From Bacteroidota bacterium (GTDB taxonomy: Bacteria; Bacteroidota; Bacteroidia; Chitinophagales; Chitinophagaceae), in the NCBI GenBank assembly GCA_018267675.1, contig JAFDYA010000175.1, forward strand, positions 1-52,180: a DNA stretch of 52,180 bases. Direction: 5' to 3'. A program made the position numbers and the translations under genes. The notes beneath the pieces are model-generated. The model was not told the DNA's origin and did not search any database. It saw only the letters and a list, made by a program, of their open reading frames with translations. Position 1 is the first letter of the stretch; each line of letters begins with the position of its first letter. Positions 8,343-29,706 of this stretch are shown one piece after another.

Positions 8343-9743
8343 TCAAAGCGGCCAAACGCTGTGTTGCTCGGGTATTTCAACAGAGTTATAGCCAGCAGCT
8401 TTCAGCTTTTCGGCAAAGACTTGTTGGGTGTCGTAATCTCCATGCACGAGAAATACTTTCTTCACACTACTTGGCGTCTGGCTACTCAACCAATGGAGTA
8501 GGTCTTGATAGTCTCCATGCGCACTCATACTTTCAATTGAGCCCACCTCTGCATATACGTCAAAAGGTTTACCAAAAATTCGTACTTCTTTGTCGCCCGC
8601 TTTGAGTCGGCCACCCAGGGAACGAGGGTCACAGTAGCCTACAAGTAGGATCGTGTTCCGCTTGTCGTCAATATTGTGAACAATATGATGCTTAATCCTC
8701 CCGGCTTCTGCCATCCCTGACGAAGAAATAATAACGCAAGGCCCTTGAACTTCGTTTATGGCCATCGACTCTTCTACAGTTCGAGTATAGGTTAGTCCTT
8801 TGAATTTGAACACATCGGGGTCCTTCCTAAGGATCGCTTCCACCTCTGCATTGAAGCATTCCGGATGAGCTTTGATGATTTCTGTTGCCGTGATAGAAAG
8901 TGGTGAGTCCACAAAATATTTCAAGTCGGGCAACTTACCATTCAGTTCATAACGATTAAGCTGGTACAAAAGTTCTTGCGTTCTACCGACACTAAAGGAC
9001 GGAATGACGAGTTTTCCTTTTTTCTCAATACAAGTATGATTGATCCAGTCCAGTAATTCAGTAGAATTTGGTGGGATTGGCTTGTGCAATTTGTCTCCAT
9101 AAGTAGATTCCATGACCACATAATCATCTGCTTGAAAGCTAGCAGGGGAGCGGAGAATAGCATCCCGATACCGACCAATATCGCCGGAGAAGGTGAGTTT
9201 CGTTGTCTTTCCATTTTCCTGAATGGTCAAATTCACAGCGGCACTACCTAGTAGGTGGCCGGCATCGGTAAAAAGAAGACTAACGCCATCAAGGATTTCG
9301 GAGGATTCACCATATTCAAGTATGGAGAATTGCTCTGCCGCTGCTATTGCATCTTCCTCCACATAGAGTGGTTCTAAGAGTTCTCTATTTTCCTTTGCCC
9401 GGTGCTTGTTGAGGTATTTGATATCACTCTCTTGGATTCGTGCAGAGTCCCGCATAAGAATCTTGGCTAGGTCGGCAGTAGCAGAGGTGCACCATATTTT
9501 TCCTTTAAAGCCTTCTTTCACCAATTTTGGAACAAGTCCACAGTGATCGATATGAGCATGGGAAAGGACCATGACATCGACCTTTGCCGGTTCAAATCCG
9601 AAAACGGAATTCAAGTGTACGGTTTCTTTACCCATCCCTTGAAATAAGCCACAGTCTAACAAGATCTGCTTTCCGTTGTCAAGGGTGATGAGGTGTTTGG
9701 AGCCGGTAACTACCCGCGCTGCGCCATGGAATGAAATCTGCAT
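8343..9743 (-). CDS. Metallo-beta-lactamase fold hydrolase of the beta-CASP/CPSF (RNA-processing) type
   Basis: Starting at the ATG at 9743 (MQISFHGAARVVTGSKHLIT) gives 466 residues, the normal family length. The frame stays open further upstream, but that extension matches no family start. The zinc motifs of the MBL fold are visible: SHAHIDHCGLVP (HxHxDH), TDAGHLLGSAAV and FSGDIGRY. The beta-CASP motifs follow: VMESTYGDK, VIPSFSVGRTQELLY, VIISSSGMAEAGRIKHH and a C-terminal SAHGDYQDLLHWL plus VFLVHGDYD. Such proteins are predicted ribonucleases or RNA-processing exonucleases in the cytoplasm (YsbJ/CPSF73-like). It is convergent with the upstream membrane protein and lies downstream of metG on the same strand. 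The exact substrate is unknown. Confidence 0.9.
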   Translation of the reverse strand: MQISFHGAARVVTGSKHLITLDNGKQILLDCGLFQGMGKETVHLNSVFGFEPAKVDVMVLSHAHIDHCGLVPKLVKEGFKGKIWCTSATADLAKILMRDSARIQESDIKYLNKHRAKENRELLEPLYVEEDAIAAAEQFSILEYGESSEILDGVSLLFTDAGHLLGSAAVNLTIQENGKTTKLTFSGDIGRYRDAILRSPASFQADDYVVMESTYGDKLHKPIPPNSTELLDWINHTCIEKKGKLVIPSFSVGRTQELLYQLNRYELNGKLPDLKYFVDSPLSITATEIIKAHPECFNAEVEAILRKDPDVFKFKGLTYTRTVEESMAINEVQGPCVIISSSGMAEAGRIKHHIVHNIDDKRNTILLVGYCDPRSLGGRLKAGDKEVRIFGKPFDVYAEVGSIESMSAHGDYQDLLHWLSSQTPSSVKKVFLVHGDYDTQQVFAEKLKAAGYNSVEIPEQHSVWPL

Positions 9744-9828
9744 AAGTATGGAAAGATAAATAAGTTTTGTAGGATGGTGCTGCAACAAAATGTGTCGCAA
9801 CACTGTTGCTGCAAAAACCTTACCACGC

Positions 9829-11928
9829 TTATCGTACTTCTGCGCCGGGTGCGACTGCTGTGCCGGGTGCAACAAAGACCAACTTGCCTTCTGAGTCTTC
9901 GGACATGAGGATCATACCGGCACTTTCAATACCTTTCATTTTCCTGGGTGCAAGATTGGCAACAACTGTCACTTGCTTGCCAATAATCTCTTCGGGGCTA
10001 AAATGCTGCGCGATACCGGAAACGATCGTGCGTACTTCGCCATTGCCCATATCCACTTTTAGCTGGAGTAGCTTGTCTGCTTTTGCTACTTTTTCTGCAG
10101 CTTGAATGGTACCAATCTTCAAGTCAATTTTGGCGAAATCATCAAATGAAATTTCGGCTTTTGGCGGCGCCGAAGGCGCCGCCAAACTTGCTGCAGGTGC
10201 AGCATTGGTACTACTAGCGCTGGCCTTTTCTCTACTTGCAGCATGCAATTTCTCTACTTGCGCTGCAATCTCTACATCTTCAATTTTTCTAAACAAAAGC
10301 TCCGGTTCCCGCAGTTGATAGTTGGGGCGAAGCAAATCCATCTTGCCTGCATTTTCCCAAAACAACATCCTATCCACCACCTTCATCATGTGGCACATCT
10401 TCTTTGCGGTATCCGGAAGGAACGGGGCAATAAAAATGGCAAGGTTCGCGCTGAGCTGCAAGCAAAGTTGAACACAATTATCAATCAATTCCTGCACACT
10501 TGGATCTTCTTCCAGCTTCTTGGCAAGCAACCAAGGTGCTTTGTCCTGAAGGTATTTATTGCCTTTAGTTGAAAGCGCCATTATCTCAGCGAGCGCATCA
10601 CGGAAATGATACGTTTCAATACTGTCCTGAATCTTCTGTTTGGCTTCTTGGATAGCTGCTACTAAAGCCTGATCCGTATCATCTCTACGTGCCGCATGAT
10701 ACATCGGGACCCGTCCTTTGCAGAGTTTGTGCATCATGACCATGGCCCGATTCACAAAGTTTCCGAAATTACTGTTCAGCTCACTATTGACGCGAGTCTG
10801 GAAATCTTTCCAAGTAAAGTCATTGTCCTTAGTTTCCGGTGCATTTGCACAAAGTACATAGCGCAATAAGTCCGCTTCGCCAGGAAAATCTTGTAGGTAT
10901 TCATGCACCCAGACTGCCCAATTGCGAGAGGTACTCACCTTTTCTCCTTCGATATTCAAAAATTCATTGGCTGGAACAGCTTCAGGTAATACAAATCCAC
11001 CGTGTGCTTTGAGCATTGCCGGGAAAATGATGCAATGGAACACAATATTGTCCTTACCGATAAAATGGACCAATTTAGTATCTTCTTTTTGCCAATAGTC
11101 CGCCCAATGAGGTGTCAGCTCCTTGGTTGCAGAGATATACCCGATCGGTGCGTCAAACCATACGTACAACACTTTCCCCTCAGCATCTTTAAGCGGCACA
11201 GGCACACCCCAGTTGCTATCCCTAGTCATGGCGCGAGGCTGCAATCCGGCATCAATCCAACTCTTGCATTGTCCATACACGTTGGATTTCCATTGGTCTT
11301 TCTTTCCTTCAACGATCCACTCTCGTAGCCAATCTTCATACTTGTTTAGCGGGAAATACCAATGCTTGGTCTTTCGTTTCTCAGGGATCGCATCACTCAA
11401 GGCACTTTTAGGCTGGAGCAACATTTCTGGAGAGAGGGAACTACCACATCGTTCACATTGATCGCCGTATGCACCGGGATTACTACAAACGGGGCAAGTC
11501 CCAACAATATAGCGGTCGGCAAGGAATACCTTTTTCTCAGGGTCGAAGTATTGTTCACTTTCCGTCTCTTCAAAAATCCCCTTTTCGTATAGTTTGGTAA
11601 AGAAATCTTGTGCGGTAGCCCGATGTACCGAAGATGAGGTTCGAGCAAAAATGTCGCAAGACACACCCATTTGCGCCAAAGAATCTTTGATTAAGACGTG
11701 GTATTTGTCCACGACTTCCTGTGGTGTGACACCTTCCTTCATGGCTCGGATAGTAATCGGAACTCCATGCTCATCACTACCGCAAACGAACTGTACATCT
11801 CGCTTTTGTGCCCGTTGATAGCGGGTGTAGATATCTGCTGGAAGATAACAACCGGCTAAATGACCAATATGAACCGGCCCATTAGCATAGGGTAGTGCGG
11901 CTGTTACGAGCAAGCGTTTTTCTGTCAT
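9829..11928 (-). CDS. metG: Methionyl-tRNA synthetase with C-terminal tRNA-binding domain
   Basis: The 699-residue enzyme charges tRNA-Met with methionine. HIGH motif VHIGHLAG is at residues 19-26. Zinc-binding cysteines C145-x2-C148 and C158-x2-C161 mark the MetG1-type knuckle, and KVSTS (330-334) is the KMSKS loop. The anticodon-binding helical domain follows to about residue 560. A low-complexity Ala/Ser/Pro linker (about 580-600) joins the EMAP-II/Trbp111-like dimerisation and tRNA-binding domain (FAKIDLKIGTIQAAEKVAKA to the end). The linker DNA contains a perfect 12-base inverted repeat (10160-10186). The ATG at 11928 is only 8 bases from a -7 promoter element, so the leader would be very short. 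Confidence 0.98.
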   Translation of the reverse strand: MTEKRLLVTAALPYANGPVHIGHLAGCYLPADIYTRYQRAQKRDVQFVCGSDEHGVPITIRAMKEGVTPQEVVDKYHVLIKDSLAQMGVSCDIFARTSSSVHRATAQDFFTKLYEKGIFEETESEQYFDPEKKVFLADRYIVGTCPVCSNPGAYGDQCERCGSSLSPEMLLQPKSALSDAIPEKRKTKHWYFPLNKYEDWLREWIVEGKKDQWKSNVYGQCKSWIDAGLQPRAMTRDSNWGVPVPLKDAEGKVLYVWFDAPIGYISATKELTPHWADYWQKEDTKLVHFIGKDNIVFHCIIFPAMLKAHGGFVLPEAVPANEFLNIEGEKVSTSRNWAVWVHEYLQDFPGEADLLRYVLCANAPETKDNDFTWKDFQTRVNSELNSNFGNFVNRAMVMMHKLCKGRVPMYHAARRDDTDQALVAAIQEAKQKIQDSIETYHFRDALAEIMALSTKGNKYLQDKAPWLLAKKLEEDPSVQELIDNCVQLCLQLSANLAIFIAPFLPDTAKKMCHMMKVVDRMLFWENAGKMDLLRPNYQLREPELLFRKIEDVEIAAQVEKLHAASREKASASSTNAAPAASLAAPSAPPKAEISFDDFAKIDLKIGTIQAAEKVAKADKLLQLKVDMGNGEVRTIVSGIAQHFSPEEIIGKQVTVVANLAPRKMKGIESAGMILMSEDSEGKLVFVAPGTAVAPGAEVR
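10160..10186. repeat. Perfect GC-rich hairpin inside metG linker
   Basis: Twelve-base arms TTTGGCGGCGCC and GGCGCCGCCAAA flank the triloop GAA. The hairpin encodes part of the Ala/Pro/Ser linker between the catalytic and C-terminal tRNA-binding parts of MetG, keeps the frame, and is far more GC-rich than its surroundings. Confidence 0.85.
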
Positions 11929-21552: not shown

Positions 21553-23371
<1,819 letters not shown>

Positions 23372-23385
23372 GAGAAGCTACACCG

Positions 23386-23643
23386 ATGCAATTAGAAATT
23401 TTAACGCCCGAGCACCAAGTGTTTAACGGCAATGTTTACGGAATTTATCTACCCGGAGTAGAAGGTACTTTTGAATTACTCGATATGCACGCACCTTTGA
23501 TTGCTTCTTTGGGTAAAGGCAAAATGAAAGTGCTGAAAGAGAAAACCGGACAAACTGATGTATTTGAAATCAGTGGTGGTTTTGTAGAGATGCTCAACAA
23601 TAAGGCTACCGTCCTCATTGAAGATGCTACCTCTATGGAATAA
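23386..23643 (+). CDS. atpC: F-type ATP synthase subunit epsilon (short form)
   Basis: The 85-residue product (MQLEILTPEHQVFNGNVYGI) is the N-terminal beta-sandwich domain of epsilon, with PGVEGTFELLDMHAPLIASL. It ends after FVEMLNNKATVLIEDA and lacks the C-terminal two-helix inhibitory domain found in the 130-residue form. The short form is usual for Bacteroidota. It follows atpD by 14 bases and is followed by a strong terminator. Confidence 0.96.
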   Translation: MQLEILTPEHQVFNGNVYGIYLPGVEGTFELLDMHAPLIASLGKGKMKVLKEKTGQTDVFEISGGFVEMLNNKATVLIEDATSME

Positions 23644-23666: not shown

Positions 23667-23699
23667 AAAAGAGATAGCTTCGGCTATCTCTTTTTTTTT
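23667..23699 (+). terminator. Rho-independent terminator of atpDC
   Basis: Arms GAGATAGC (23671-23678) and GCTATCTC (23683-23690) close a UUCG tetraloop, extended by AAAA/TTTT pairing and followed by a run of nine T. Confidence 0.93.
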
Positions 23700-23771
23700 A
23701 ATTGTGACTAGGTATCAACATCAAACACTGCTGTAGTCAAATGGTTCAAAAAAATGTAGGATCCGCATCAA

Positions 23772-23823
23772 CAAACACAATCCAGAGGCAAGGATGCCAA
23801 TTTCACACATTGTAAAATTGCCC
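23772..23823. repeat. Direct repeat copy A (52 bp), downstream of the giant T9SS protein gene
   Basis: These 52 bases, starting CAAACACAATCCAGAGGCAA, recur in the same orientation at 28516-28567 with one difference (A at 23799, T at 28543). Each copy contains a small hairpin GGCA-AGGA-TGCC; copy A also has CAATTT-N11-AAATTG. Copy A starts 19 bases past the stop of the intervening 4.6-kb gene. The flanks outside the repeat keep weaker similarity on the left side. Confidence 0.92.
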
Positions 23824-23842
23824 CCAATCAGTTCAGAACAAT

Positions 23843-26800
23843 CTAACGAATTAGCAAAACGTCGCCTTTCTTAAGATAAAGTTTATTTTTTTCGTCAGTG
23901 ATTCTGTACTGCAATTGCCAAAAGTAGGTTCCTGCAGCTGCCGGTTGCCCATTCAGGGTTCCATCCCATCCTTGTGAATTTTGGTCACTGGCATACACCT
24001 GCTGCCCCCATCTATTATAAACATTCAACCCAACTAATCGGATATTTGGGTTGTCTGTGATGATATGAAAAAAATCATTCCTGCCATCATTGTTTGGCGT
24101 AAAAGCATTGGGCATCCATAAATCATTTGGGATATCCAACACTTGGATTGCGTAGGTACAGCTATCACGACAATCGCCGTTTCGTAAAATGCAACGATAG
24201 ACAGTTTGATAGTTCTTAGCATTTAGGTGAAGGCTTGCGCAGTTGGCACAAATCAGTGAATCACCAAGATACCAATCTTTGTTCATAGCCTCACCACATG
24301 CCGGGAGGTCTAAATTTGTTTTATAAGGTATTGTTAGTGCCGTATCCTCAAATCGCGCCTTGGGCAATGTAGTTACCAAAATAGCTGATGTTGCAGTATC
24401 TATACCAAAACGATTCTGAGCAACTACGGAAATCGGATATATTCCGGACGAATCATAACAAATTAAACCTGGTTGGACTTCTGTGGAACTACTCGGATGA
24501 CCACCCGGGAAACTCCATAGAAAGAACTTTGGAAAGTTTCTAAATTCAGCATGTGGACTGATGCAATCTCCTGCGCAGATGGTGGCATTTGAAAGGGCTA
24601 ATTTTGAAATATTTGGTTTGCAAAATTGAATATTTAGCGTATCCTGAATATATCCACAAGGCGTAGATACTCTAACCCAAATCGTTGTTGGTGAATCAAC
24701 TCGAATCCGGTATGAAGTGCTACCTGTACTCCAAAGAACATCTTCCAGTTTGGTCGAAACACCAAAATAGGTGTAGCCAGCCGGGTTGCAGACGATCGTA
24801 TCTTCAGGCCATTTAGGCAACAATTCACCCACACCAATAATCTTGATCGTATCGTGAAATGTACCACATTTATTGGAAGCGCTTACCCAATATGTTCCCG
24901 GCTTGGTTACAACAATTCGTGAACCAGTTGCTCCGGTGCTCCATAAAATTCCGGTAAATCCAGTATCAATTGCCAATGGAATTTGAAAGCTTTTGTTGCA
25001 AACTAATGTGTCATTTCCCAAGAAAATTGATCTTTCATAAAGTACAATTTCTACTGAATCCGAAATTACAGCTGGGCAAATCGGTGTATTCACTTTCACA
25101 AAATACACACCGGATAGTGCTGTTGTAATTGTATCAGTGCTTGCGCCTGCAATCAGTGTGTGATCTCGAAACCAAGTGTATGTCCACGTAGAATCTGCTT
25201 TGGATTTTATTGTTATCGTTTGCCCCGGACAAAGGCTAACTTTTCCTGATGGCTTGAGGCGTACAGTAGGTGCTGGAGTCACGACCAAGGTAAATTTTGA
25301 AGAAGTAGCAATACAACCACCATTTGAAACGACAACGCTATAATTTCCGGCCACTAGAGCATAATACACTTGCTTTGTTGCCAATGCAATCGGACCACCA
25401 TTATACTGCCAACTATAACTAAGTCCAGTACCCGAATTTGCAGTCAATCTAACACTATCCCCTTGACAAATTTGATTTTTAAACGCAATAATAGTTGCAA
25501 CCGGGCGCGGCGTCACAATTATAGTATCTTCTTGCGATGTATCAATTTGACATAGTCCGGCGTCTATTGCTACCCGATACCTCCCAGAAGCCGAAACAGG
25601 TAAAGTGACGGAATCAGCCCCAGGAATAGGGACTCCATTTCGATACCATTGAAAAGTTGTTGACGATGCATCGTAAAATCCAACCGCCGTCAAAGTGGTG
25701 GTGTCTCCAGTACAAAGTTTCTTATGTGTATTGTTGATTCCAGCCACTAATATCTTTGTTGGGTCGGATAAAAATTCAATGCTGTCACTTTTTGTCTTAC
25801 ATTGGCTAAGTGTATCAATAGCAATTGCAGCATAACTACCCGCGACTAGTACCGATTTTTGAAAGATACTGTTAGCTGGCTCTAAAGTGTCATGAATAAA
25901 TGTCTTTCCTAGTATGCCATAGTTCAAAATGCCAACATCCCACATGTAGGCAAAACTACTGTTTGGGTTGGTGATGTTTACAGTTATCGGTCTTGGCAAA
26001 CAATTATAACTAAGCTGTGGTTTGGGAGGCTGAGGTGCTATTGCAATCCGAACACTATCCCTAACAGGTGAGCCGCAAGCAGTTGTAGAAATGCTGACGT
26101 AATACTTACCTGCATTGTTGTTGCTGATTTTTGAAATAATCGGGTTTCGTAAGCTTGAAGTAAATCCACCCGGCCCGGTCCATGCGTAAGTAGCGTTAGG
26201 TAGATAGATGGCACTTAGCTGTACATCCTCGTTAAGACATGCAAGATAAGCAGAACTCGAGATAGCCCGAACATGATCTAAGTCAATGATATACACTCGT
26301 TGCACTGCAAAGGCCCCACAACTATCTTCCACTTTAACATCGAACGAATCTCGGGCATTACCACCAAATCCTGCAAAAAATCCAGAGTCATTGCTTGCCA
26401 AAAAGGGACCAGAACTTACCTTTCCCGGCAGAGCTAATGTATATTTGTAATGTGATACGGGTGCTTTATACGGAAAGCCTCCTTGTCCTTTCACTGCAAT
26501 AATAGCCCCACCCTGATTGGCACCGCTACAGATAAACCCTTGTGTTTGATTATTATTAATACTAAGAGAATCATAGACATAATCGAACGAAAAACTCTTT
26601 GTATATTTGTTGGGGTATCCTAGGTAAAAGCCAGTAGGAGTATAATATCCTGAAATTGTATTCTGACCGTTAGCAACCGAAGGAATGATAGTATAATGTC
26701 CGGATTCCGGTAATAGAACTGAACTACCTGAAGGGTAGGATGGCCACTTTGTGGTTCCTCCTATTGTTACATAATATGGCGAGCCGTTTCGAAATAAAGA

Positions 26801-28405
26801 AAAAGTAAATTGTCCAGATGCGCCGGCAACAGTTACCGATCCATTTACCCGAAGGTTTAATCCCTGACAGGTTTGTTGCATTGTCGGAGTTGGAAGAGTA
26901 AATTGACAAAGGTCAGAATTGGAAACTGTAACACTTAGGTAATAAACCGCACACTCGTCAGTGATTTTCCATACATAATTTCCAACTGGAAACTTCAAAG
27001 TGTTAGCTGTAGGAAAGCCATTATTGTAAATGTTTATTGCGCTTCCTATCCACGAGCTCTTGTAACTATATCCTATCGGACCGCTAAATAATTCTATTGT
27101 TCTATTACCACCGATATTACCATAATTTGAGTTGAAATAAAAGTAATCAACATAGTTATGCAATCCAAATAAGGCAGTCCCTACATGAACAGTGTACGGT
27201 ATCCCGGTCAATGCTTGGGTGCTTATTCTAATCGAATCTTTATATCCATCAGAAGTTGTGTACACTAAATAATAGGAGCCTAATGGATAACTTGGAGTAG
27301 TAAAATAGTTTCCCGTAATGACTTGGGAGCTGAACAAACGATTTGAATTTACATCCCTCAGATGATATGTTACTGGGAAACAAATAGGTGCGTCATAATC
27401 AAAATATGCATTTAAATAGAAGTTTGAATCACATTTTTGATTATTTTCATAATAAATTCTCGGCTTTGGAAACGAAGTGATCAATTTTCTAGTTGTACCA
27501 CATGGAAATCTAAATGTATATTCAATTTTACTAGAATATAAATCCTTAATAGTATATGGGCTAGTCAAATGCACTCCAATTCCTTTCTTTAATTGCGCAA
27601 ATGCTGTAGATGCAATTGCCCCTCCTTTTATCTTGACTGAATATTGAAAACCTGTATCATTCAAGTAAACATCCCAATCCCCGCCAAACACCAATGGTGG
27701 ATGAATAAGCAATGAATCGCAAGCCAAAGCGAAGCAATTGTTATCGTACAAGTTAGCCGACACCGGGTTGATTACAGATACAGAAAAAGTGTATAATGCT
27801 GTTCCGGAATTACACCCATCAACAACCTGTACCGTATAGTTACCACTGGGTAAATTAGAAAATCTAAATTGCCCTAAAGTATCGCTATATTGTTTACTAC
27901 CGGTGTAGGTACTTGGCCAAGCCTTTAGTGTATAGGTAAAGGCTTTGGTTCCGCCACTGACTTTTCCATATATTTCACCTGTTGTTCGACAGCTCAAAGT
28001 TGGAATAGATCCCGTTTGAATAATCTTCGGTAGCGTATAATTTCCAGGAACATTTACTTGAATCGTTCTTCCCACATTTGTACCACCGCAGCTAGCAATT
28101 GCTGTGACACTTATCGTACCTTGGGGAATGCTACGGAAATTAGAGTCAGAATTCAAGGGTACAGAAAAACCGTTTGGTTGTGTGGGAATCCCAAATTCGA
28201 TATTGCTCAAATTAGCCACATCTGTACCGTGCATTTTGACTACAAATGATCCATTCGCTGCGCAAGTTGCTGTGGTGACGGTATTTACTGAAATACCCCA
28301 ATTGCTGCATTGAGCGAAAGACTTTGAGCTGTAAAATAGAATCAAAATCCCTAGAAATAAGACAAATTTCAGGTAGTCGAATATGCCATCTTTTTTACTT
28401 TTCAT
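23843..28405 (-). CDS. Giant T9SS type B surface protein with Ig/PKD-like domains
   Basis: The 1520-residue protein has a signal peptide (residues about 10-32, FLGILILFYSSKSFAQC). Many repeated beta-sandwich modules with the wording TVQVVDGCNSG, YYVSISTTACGSPV, YSVVVSNGGC, YFVKVNTPIC and YWVSASNKCG follow. A PKD-like domain comes next (FLWSFPGGHPSSSTEVQPGL). The last 90 residues are the gliding-motility-associated type B sorting domain: WMPNAFTPNNDGRNDFFHI, NVYNRWGQQVYAS, GWDGTLNGQPAAAGTYFWQL. Such proteins cross the outer membrane by the type IX system and act as cell-surface adhesins or matrix components. The gene is bounded by near-identical 52-bp direct repeats and appears transcribed alone. 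Confidence 0.93.
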   Translation of the reverse strand: MKSKKDGIFDYLKFVLFLGILILFYSSKSFAQCSNWGISVNTVTTATCAANGSFVVKMHGTDVANLSNIEFGIPTQPNGFSVPLNSDSNFRSIPQGTISVTAIASCGGTNVGRTIQVNVPGNYTLPKIIQTGSIPTLSCRTTGEIYGKVSGGTKAFTYTLKAWPSTYTGSKQYSDTLGQFRFSNLPSGNYTVQVVDGCNSGTALYTFSVSVINPVSANLYDNNCFALACDSLLIHPPLVFGGDWDVYLNDTGFQYSVKIKGGAIASTAFAQLKKGIGVHLTSPYTIKDLYSSKIEYTFRFPCGTTRKLITSFPKPRIYYENNQKCDSNFYLNAYFDYDAPICFPVTYHLRDVNSNRLFSSQVITGNYFTTPSYPLGSYYLVYTTSDGYKDSIRISTQALTGIPYTVHVGTALFGLHNYVDYFYFNSNYGNIGGNRTIELFSGPIGYSYKSSWIGSAINIYNNGFPTANTLKFPVGNYVWKITDECAVYYLSVTVSNSDLCQFTLPTPTMQQTCQGLNLRVNGSVTVAGASGQFTFSLFRNGSPYYVTIGGTTKWPSYPSGSSVLLPESGHYTIIPSVANGQNTISGYYTPTGFYLGYPNKYTKSFSFDYVYDSLSINNNQTQGFICSGANQGGAIIAVKGQGGFPYKAPVSHYKYTLALPGKVSSGPFLASNDSGFFAGFGGNARDSFDVKVEDSCGAFAVQRVYIIDLDHVRAISSSAYLACLNEDVQLSAIYLPNATYAWTGPGGFTSSLRNPIISKISNNNAGKYYVSISTTACGSPVRDSVRIAIAPQPPKPQLSYNCLPRPITVNITNPNSSFAYMWDVGILNYGILGKTFIHDTLEPANSIFQKSVLVAGSYAAIAIDTLSQCKTKSDSIEFLSDPTKILVAGINNTHKKLCTGDTTTLTAVGFYDASSTTFQWYRNGVPIPGADSVTLPVSASGRYRVAIDAGLCQIDTSQEDTIIVTPRPVATIIAFKNQICQGDSVRLTANSGTGLSYSWQYNGGPIALATKQVYYALVAGNYSVVVSNGGCIATSSKFTLVVTPAPTVRLKPSGKVSLCPGQTITIKSKADSTWTYTWFRDHTLIAGASTDTITTALSGVYFVKVNTPICPAVISDSVEIVLYERSIFLGNDTLVCNKSFQIPLAIDTGFTGILWSTGATGSRIVVTKPGTYWVSASNKCGTFHDTIKIIGVGELLPKWPEDTIVCNPAGYTYFGVSTKLEDVLWSTGSTSYRIRVDSPTTIWVRVSTPCGYIQDTLNIQFCKPNISKLALSNATICAGDCISPHAEFRNFPKFFLWSFPGGHPSSSTEVQPGLICYDSSGIYPISVVAQNRFGIDTATSAILVTTLPKARFEDTALTIPYKTNLDLPACGEAMNKDWYLGDSLICANCASLHLNAKNYQTVYRCILRNGDCRDSCTYAIQVLDIPNDLWMPNAFTPNNDGRNDFFHIITDNPNIRLVGLNVYNRWGQQVYASDQNSQGWDGTLNGQPAAAGTYFWQLQYRITDEKNKLYLKKGDVLLIR

Positions 28406-28860
28406 GAGTCGTCTAGATATTGAGTTTATAAACTAACACACATCCGTATATGTGAAGCTAATGCAAAAAAGTTAAACGCCCAATATTTCGAAAAAATTGT
28501 GCTCCATCTCCTCAGCAAACACAATCCAGAGGCAAGGATGCCTATTTCACACATTGTAAAATTGCCCAAAATTGCAAAGCTGCTTGACTTCTGCGCCCGG
28601 TAATTGTAGCCAATAATGGTACAATAAATCCAGCATTTGAACGAGCAAAATTGCTCCATTTCTGAACATCAGAGTGGCATGGATGATGCATTTGAATGCT
28701 TCATTTCAAACGGCCATGTGAATATGTTTAGGCTTTCCTAAAGCAACGGAATTGAACCAACGATTTCTTCTAAAATTCAGTCTTCTTTGGCACTAGGGAA
28801 GCCGAAAACTATACAGAGTAGGCAATTTCATTTTTCAACAAACTTTCAGTCCAAACCATC
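28406..28860. other. 455-base divergent intergenic region
   Basis: It separates the giant surface-protein gene (minus) from the GEVED protein gene (plus). It contains direct repeat copy B at 28516-28567, 110 bases before the surface-protein start. No exact TAnnTTTG element was found for either gene. Open frames here are short and unlike known proteins. Apart from the repeat nothing was recognised. Confidence 0.6.
28516..28567. repeat. Direct repeat copy B (52 bp), upstream of the giant T9SS protein gene
   Basis: It is identical to copy A (23772-23823) except for one base. The hairpin here is one pair longer, AGGCA-AGGA-TGCCT (28530-28543), because of that substitution. The distance between copies is 4744 bases, nearly all of it a single gene. 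Confidence 0.92.
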
Positions 28861-29706
28861 ATGAGGAAATTCTTCCTTTTTAGCTGTGTCGCGATCTTCA
28901 GCCATTCTGCTTACGCGCAAACGACCAATCCCACGCCTTACTGTGTAGCCACTTTTGATGATGCACAGGGCTTTCCTGTCGATGACCACATTAACAGTGT
29001 TGTTTTTGGTGGCCTATCCAGCACTTCCAACGCGCAGTATCAAGCGCCCCACTATGTGTTTTACAACAACTTGGCAGTGAAAGATTTTATCAAAGATTCT
29101 ACTTATAACCTAAGCCTAAGTTTCAAAGTATCCGGAGGCTGCGGATACGGTGTTTGGATCGATTATAACCGAAATAACACCTTCGAAGCCAACGAAAAAG
29201 TCGCCGGCACAACCGGAACCGAAATGCTAAATCTGGGTAACAACACGATGGTCAATAAAACTGTGAAGATCCCATCAACTGCCGCTACAGGCAATACGCG
29301 CATGCGAGTACGCATCGTTGAGGATGACAACCACAACATGACAAACACCAGCCAACTTCCCTGCAATGCAAGCAATTCCGATGAAGATGTAATGGACTGG
29401 GGCGAAACAGAAGATTATACCATTAACATTAAAGCGAAACAAACACCATCTGCAATCAACGACGCAAATCATACAACTGCATTTACAGTAGCCCCCAATC
29501 CGGGAAACGGCCTCTTCAAAATTTCTTCCGAATCATCATTCGCTGATGTGATCTCTGTGTACAACTTGATGGGTAAACTAATCCTTCAAGTACATCCTAA
29601 AAGCAATCAAAGCACTATTGATCTGAGCAATCAACCCAAAGGAATCTACATACTTAAGCTGGGTAGCAATAGTCAAGAAGTGACGCAAAAAATCATAATT
29701 CAATAG
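28861..29706 (+). CDS. Secreted GEVED-domain protein with T9SS type A sorting domain
   Basis: The 281-residue protein has a signal peptide (MRKFFLFSCVAIFSHSAYAQ). A GEVED domain (about 25-195) follows, with VWIDYNRNNTFEANEKV, MRVRIVEDD and the closing WGETEDYTINI. The C-terminal type A sorting domain (about 205-281) reads VAPNPGNGLFKISS, VYNLMGKLILQ, IDLSNQPKGIYILKL, VTQKIIIQ. GEVED domains are common in extracellular Bacteroidota proteins, including some linked to adhesion or proteolysis, but no catalytic domain is visible. It is followed by a strong terminator and is probably monocistronic. Confidence 0.92.
   Translation: MRKFFLFSCVAIFSHSAYAQTTNPTPYCVATFDDAQGFPVDDHINSVVFGGLSSTSNAQYQAPHYVFYNNLAVKDFIKDSTYNLSLSFKVSGGCGYGVWIDYNRNNTFEANEKVAGTTGTEMLNLGNNTMVNKTVKIPSTAATGNTRMRVRIVEDDNHNMTNTSQLPCNASNSDEDVMDWGETEDYTINIKAKQTPSAINDANHTTAFTVAPNPGNGLFKISSESSFADVISVYNLMGKLILQVHPKSNQSTIDLSNQPKGIYILKLGSNSQEVTQKIIIQ

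Follow-up and report, generated by a model that had tools for sequence, protein, structure and literature searches.

Direct repeats at the two ends of a gene are known from several systems. In integrative elements bounded by attL and attR and in integron gene cassettes, a gene lies between direct repeats. Genomic islets and additive (Campbell-type) insertions combine foreign-looking cargo with unique end repeats and have no transposase. In tandem arrays of surface-protein genes, such as that of genome G029 discussed below, a gene can be framed by direct repeats in the spacers. Here, we analysed a contig of a Bacteroidota bacterium of the family Chitinophagaceae (GenBank assembly GCA_018267675.1, contig JAFDYA010000175.1, positions 1 to 52,180); this whole stretch of 52,180 nucleotides is called the window. 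A giant surface-protein gene in it is framed by two direct repeats, and the locus is similar to each of these systems in the respects just named. However, attL/attR elements and integron cassettes differ from it, because the window has no integrase, no further sites and no demonstrated circular form. Genomic islets and Campbell-type insertions differ in that the cargo here is one gene and that its donor and empty site are unseen. Compared with the tandem array, the locus has a single gene, a shorter and sharper repeat, and no homology past the repeat. The arrangement is rare, though not fundamentally new; our literature search returned background on T9SS proteins and no account of a single surface gene framed by such repeats.

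The repeats were read directly from the sequence, extended without gaps and searched for in the assembly. Copy A is located at 23768..23828 (52-bp core, 23772-23823) and copy B at 28512..28572 (core, 28516-28567), both on the forward strand. The two cores are identical at 51 of 52 positions in the same orientation, with the sole mismatch at 23799 (A) versus 28543 (T), and the ungapped extension covers 61 nt with 57 matches (93%). The core of copy A is 19 nt downstream of the giant gene's stop and is separated from the end of atpC by about 128 nt, and the core of copy B is 110 nt upstream of the giant gene's start. An earlier note on this DNA had described a near-identical 52-bp pair with one difference, framing one 1520-codon gene at these two distances, and our reading agrees with it on every point. 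When three mismatches were allowed, a 27-nt core occurred exactly twice in the window, and 0 occurrences were expected in shuffled sequences. Thus, chance is excluded as the origin of the pair.

The draft assembly is fragmented (211 contigs, 84% complete), and this could suggest that the repeat pair is an assembly artefact. However, there is a one-base difference between the two copies, all four of their flanks are distinct, and apparent overlaps of about 125 bp between contig ends imply a k-mer length far above 52-61 bp. Because the k-mer was probably longer than the repeat, the four repeat junctions are probably genuine, and we regard an artefact as highly improbable.

The 52-bp repeat has only two copies in the whole assembly (2.7 Mb, 211 contigs) and was found in none of the 395 other genomes of the family. 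Many dispersed copies, which the earlier note had named as one of the results that would count against its interpretation, were looked for and are absent. A 21-nt exact pattern from the repeat had no match in the genome-contig collection, and the plasmid and phage collections contained nothing similar to the 52-bp repeat. One viral 21-mer match (L063) was rejected as a coincidence, because the phage gene in which it falls has an otherwise unrelated sequence. In a survey for similar pairs, 0.96 Mb of the window's genome yielded a single clean non-coding direct repeat of this type, the 52-bp pair; all others were GC-rich and REP-like, made of short units, or probably coding. With 0.67 Mb from congeners included, the clean pairs were that of the window and one in congener G001.

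The same genome contains other repeat families. A MITE-looking non-coding family of 220-275 bp has copies that are 68-83% alike (L091:4555-4825, L112:6078-6344, L131:13355-13630, L096:3617-3893, L126:13360-13624, and L069:2040-2260), most of them bounded by terminal inverted repeats of the form CCCAAAAAGGTCATTAG / CTAATGACCTTTTTGGG. Two GC-rich palindromic intergenic families are REP-like, for example CCCCTCAACGAGTGAGGGG and GCGCCC...GGGACGCAAA..., and occur on L096, L142, L064, L104, L115, L111, L118, L122, L090, L075, L077, L099, and L136; several of their copies are on contigs with CHU_C-type genes. The 52-bp repeat is unrelated to these REP-like and MITE-like families, and its membership in a REP or integron/attC class was rejected.

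The direct orientation and sharp ends of the repeats, their dyad-like core and the one-gene cargo could also be explained by attL/attR-like sites at which a site-specific recombinase acts in trans, so that the giant gene would be an excisable cassette. We consider this rather improbable. A recombinase is absent from the window, no further site was found in the genome, in the family genomes, or in plasmid or phage records, and the lone viral match belongs to the unrelated phage gene. The absence of transposase and integrase genes that the earlier note had reported holds for the main ORFs of the window.

The giant gene is located on the reverse strand (23843-28405) and was annotated by Pfam and translation as a T9SS substrate of 1520 aa, with a long N-terminal part, Ig_7 and PKD domains, and CHU_C at aa 1431-1510 (PF13585, 71.5 bits versus a cut-off of 27). 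Its N-terminus reads as hydrophobic in the translation (MKSKKDGIFDYLKFVLFLGILILFYSSKSFAQ) and may be a Sec signal for export. Judged by the C-terminal CHU_C together with Ig_7 and PKD, the product is a large T9SS surface protein of the ordinary kind. It has CHU_C, Ig_7, PKD, and large size in common with CHU_C-tailed (type B CTD) T9SS surface proteins such as SprB-like adhesins, and it shows no departure from them; the subfamily to which its N-terminal half belongs is patchily distributed.

We compared the base composition of the giant gene with that of its genome, and the gene was a low-GC3 outlier. Its GC3 is 0.322, and the mean over 436 ORFs of the genome is 0.461 (sd 0.057), which places the gene at the 2.8th percentile. 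Among the 14 CHU_C-like genes it has the lowest value, and the others range from 0.40 to 0.54. None of the three congeneric genomes has an orthologue; their best matches are confined to the shared Ig/CHU_C domains. Of 296 family genomes, 11 have a relative of the N-terminal half, as do 9 of 398 genomes sampled from the order; both counts include the window's own genome. Full-length orthologues with about 40% identity are present in other genera (G263, G105/G187, G036, and G029), although contig ends truncate some of them. No close donor emerged from a peptide pattern scan of the genome contigs, from plasmids, or from the 398 order-level genomes. The cargo thus looks foreign in being a GC3 outlier that is missing in congeners and patchy in the family. 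The outlying GC3, the absence from congeners, and the distant orthologues in few other genera together indicate that the giant gene was acquired horizontally.

Two of the genomes with an orthologue could be compared as an empty and an occupied locus. G105 (L189) has an extra gene of 1386 aa between a conserved gene and the giant orthologue, relative to G187 (L190), and no repeats flank this extra gene. The protein of the conserved gene has the end LGALAALKDKMKKAEEGDGQ.

The left flank of the locus contains atpD, which encodes the beta subunit of the F1-ATPase and is conserved by sequence comparison (21629..23371, forward strand), and atpC, which encodes the epsilon subunit and was assigned by similarity, position, and translation (23389..23643, forward strand, start approximate). 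A strong intrinsic-terminator-like hairpin of the atpDC operon was found by a terminator scan at 23667..23694 on the forward strand. The right flank contains a gene for a GEVED and Por_Secre_tail protein (28861..29706, forward strand), which has a 71% identical orthologue in congener G002. Upstream of this gene, at 28792-28824 (+), there is a match to the Rfam cis-regulatory RNA DUF805b (36.4 bits versus a gathering score of 35.6); the gene behind it is not a DUF805 gene, and G002 has conserved the upstream DNA around the match.

On the left flank, DNA homology with relatives extends as far as the atpC stop codon; on the right flank, homology with G002 starts at window position 28721. The repeats are about 128 and 153 bp inside these two points. 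Thus, they lie near both edges of a lineage-specific stretch, and the segment between them makes up most of that stretch. A clean empty site is absent from the comparison: in G002 the two flanks are on different contigs with different neighbours, and no empty site could be defined in G001-G003 and other relatives, because the gene order around atpC is not conserved in them.

We propose that the repeats are the duplicated scar of a horizontally acquired single-gene insertion behind the atpDC operon, and we give this explanation a probability of roughly 45%. It is favoured by the occurrence of the repeat only twice in the genome and in none of the other family genomes, by the atypical GC3 and patchy distribution of the gene, by conserved flanks that end near both repeats, and by the absence of a mobile-element gene from the window. 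The occurrence of an insertion, the way in which it happened, and any deletion that may still take place are inferred from these observations. We favour an additive insertion: a donor fragment, circular or looped, that carried the giant gene and one copy of the repeat would recombine by a single crossover with a repeat copy already present in the chromosome, and one copy would then be left on each side of the gene. Such a scar would need no transposase and would be unique in the genome. The difference of 1 base in 52 between copies A and B may represent donor versus recipient sequence or a later mutation. Recombination between the copies could occasionally remove the giant gene.

Several results count against the insertion scar. 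Neither an empty site nor a donor turned up, which leaves the insertion without direct observation, and selection on long surface genes can also lower GC3. The only repeat-framed parallel, in G001, has an unrelated repeat. With orthologues that are only about 40% identical, the gene may have been acquired long ago, yet the repeats differ by only 1/52. The suggestion of the earlier note that the segment is a cassette able to be deleted or exchanged by recombination is supported in part: the gene fits it as acquired, patchy, and compositionally foreign, and on the evidence so far a recombining cassette is plausible only as a past event.

The main rival is that the locus is the remnant of a tandem array, in which the repeat would be an old spacer between paralogues and the other paralogues would have been lost by recombination between spacers or by decay. 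This rival draws on G029 (L186/L187, G029:C23, about 57384-73921), where the orthologous giant gene is present as a tandem array of three copies. The two 110-bp spacers of this array are about 87% identical, and the genes are about 70% identical. Such conservation of the spacers beyond that of the genes suggests either spacer conversion or fast-diverging genes. Because of the near-identical spacers, the middle gene of G029 is framed by direct repeats much as in the window. Members of this giant-gene family can thus be framed by spacer repeats, and no other result speaks as strongly for an array origin. However, the orthologues in G263 and G105 are single and have no spacer repeats. In the window, the flanks past the repeat share nothing significant: in an anchored extension, shuffled sequences did as well in 26 of 300 cases downstream and 246 of 300 upstream, and degenerate homology past the repeats was rejected. 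Neither copy is adjoined by a fragment of a paralogue, and the locus contains no duplicate coding segment. The leftover of a tandem array that the earlier note had suggested is therefore tentative and somewhat doubtful: the array in G029 speaks for it, and the lack of homology past the window repeats and of a nearby paralogue speaks against it.

The similarity of the two copies, which is much higher than that of their flanks, could also be caused by a functional cis element that is used twice, once at each transcript end (for instance a binding site for a regulator, or an RNA element), and is kept alike by selection or gene conversion. Copy A contains an imperfect palindrome found by a palindrome search, CAATTTCACA-CAT-TGTAAAATTG (23798..23820, 9/10 pairs), and this near-perfect 23-bp sequence has no other occurrence in 0.96 Mb of the genome with up to 3 mismatches. 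The uniqueness might favour a special element; at the same time, a regulon was rejected on this basis. However, the sole difference between the copies damages the palindrome, which is degraded in copy B, and about 3% of the non-coding 52-bp stretches in the genome have a palindrome as good as that of copy A. A hairpin of 4 or 5 bp is present in both copies; the base changes that the earlier note had claimed for such small hairpins are correct as written, and the hairpins themselves are unexceptional.

The 61-nt copies were folded as RNA from both strands; the z values relative to shuffles were −0.2 to −1.1, which is within the shuffled range, and the predicted folds differ between copies A and B, with none common to both. 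No Rfam family matches the 52-bp repeat, and the repeat is found at no other gene of the genome. A structured regulatory RNA was rejected on the grounds of Rfam and folding, as was a terminator at the repeats, where the terminator scan found none. The shared regulatory RNA suggested earlier thus has no support, nor does any possible regulatory role of the repeat, and a cis element used twice is an unlikely explanation of the pair.

A parallel to the insertion scar was found in G001. In this congener (L057:9417-10251, minus strand), a lipoprotein-like gene of 143 aa (9539-9970) is located directly behind atpC and is framed by a direct repeat of 97 bp with 82% identity, which consists of the atpC 3' end and the terminator. 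Among the atpC-side loci compared in relatives, only G001 has such a pair, but most of the others gave only about 1.2 kb of downstream sequence. There is a slim chance that the gap behind atpC is a recurrent landing place in this genus, where single genes are added without a transposase and with direct duplication of local sequence. If this were true, the window and G001 would be two independent cases, and each added gene would form a cassette of its own, which recombination between the copies could remove again.

As it stands, the finding is a scar in one genome, and the picture of T9SS proteins is unchanged. If the insertion scar is the right explanation, a very large adhesin-like gene was gained, and possibly can be lost, as a unit without mobile-element machinery. 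The position behind atpC would then be a specific site at which single-gene gain can be checked across strains.
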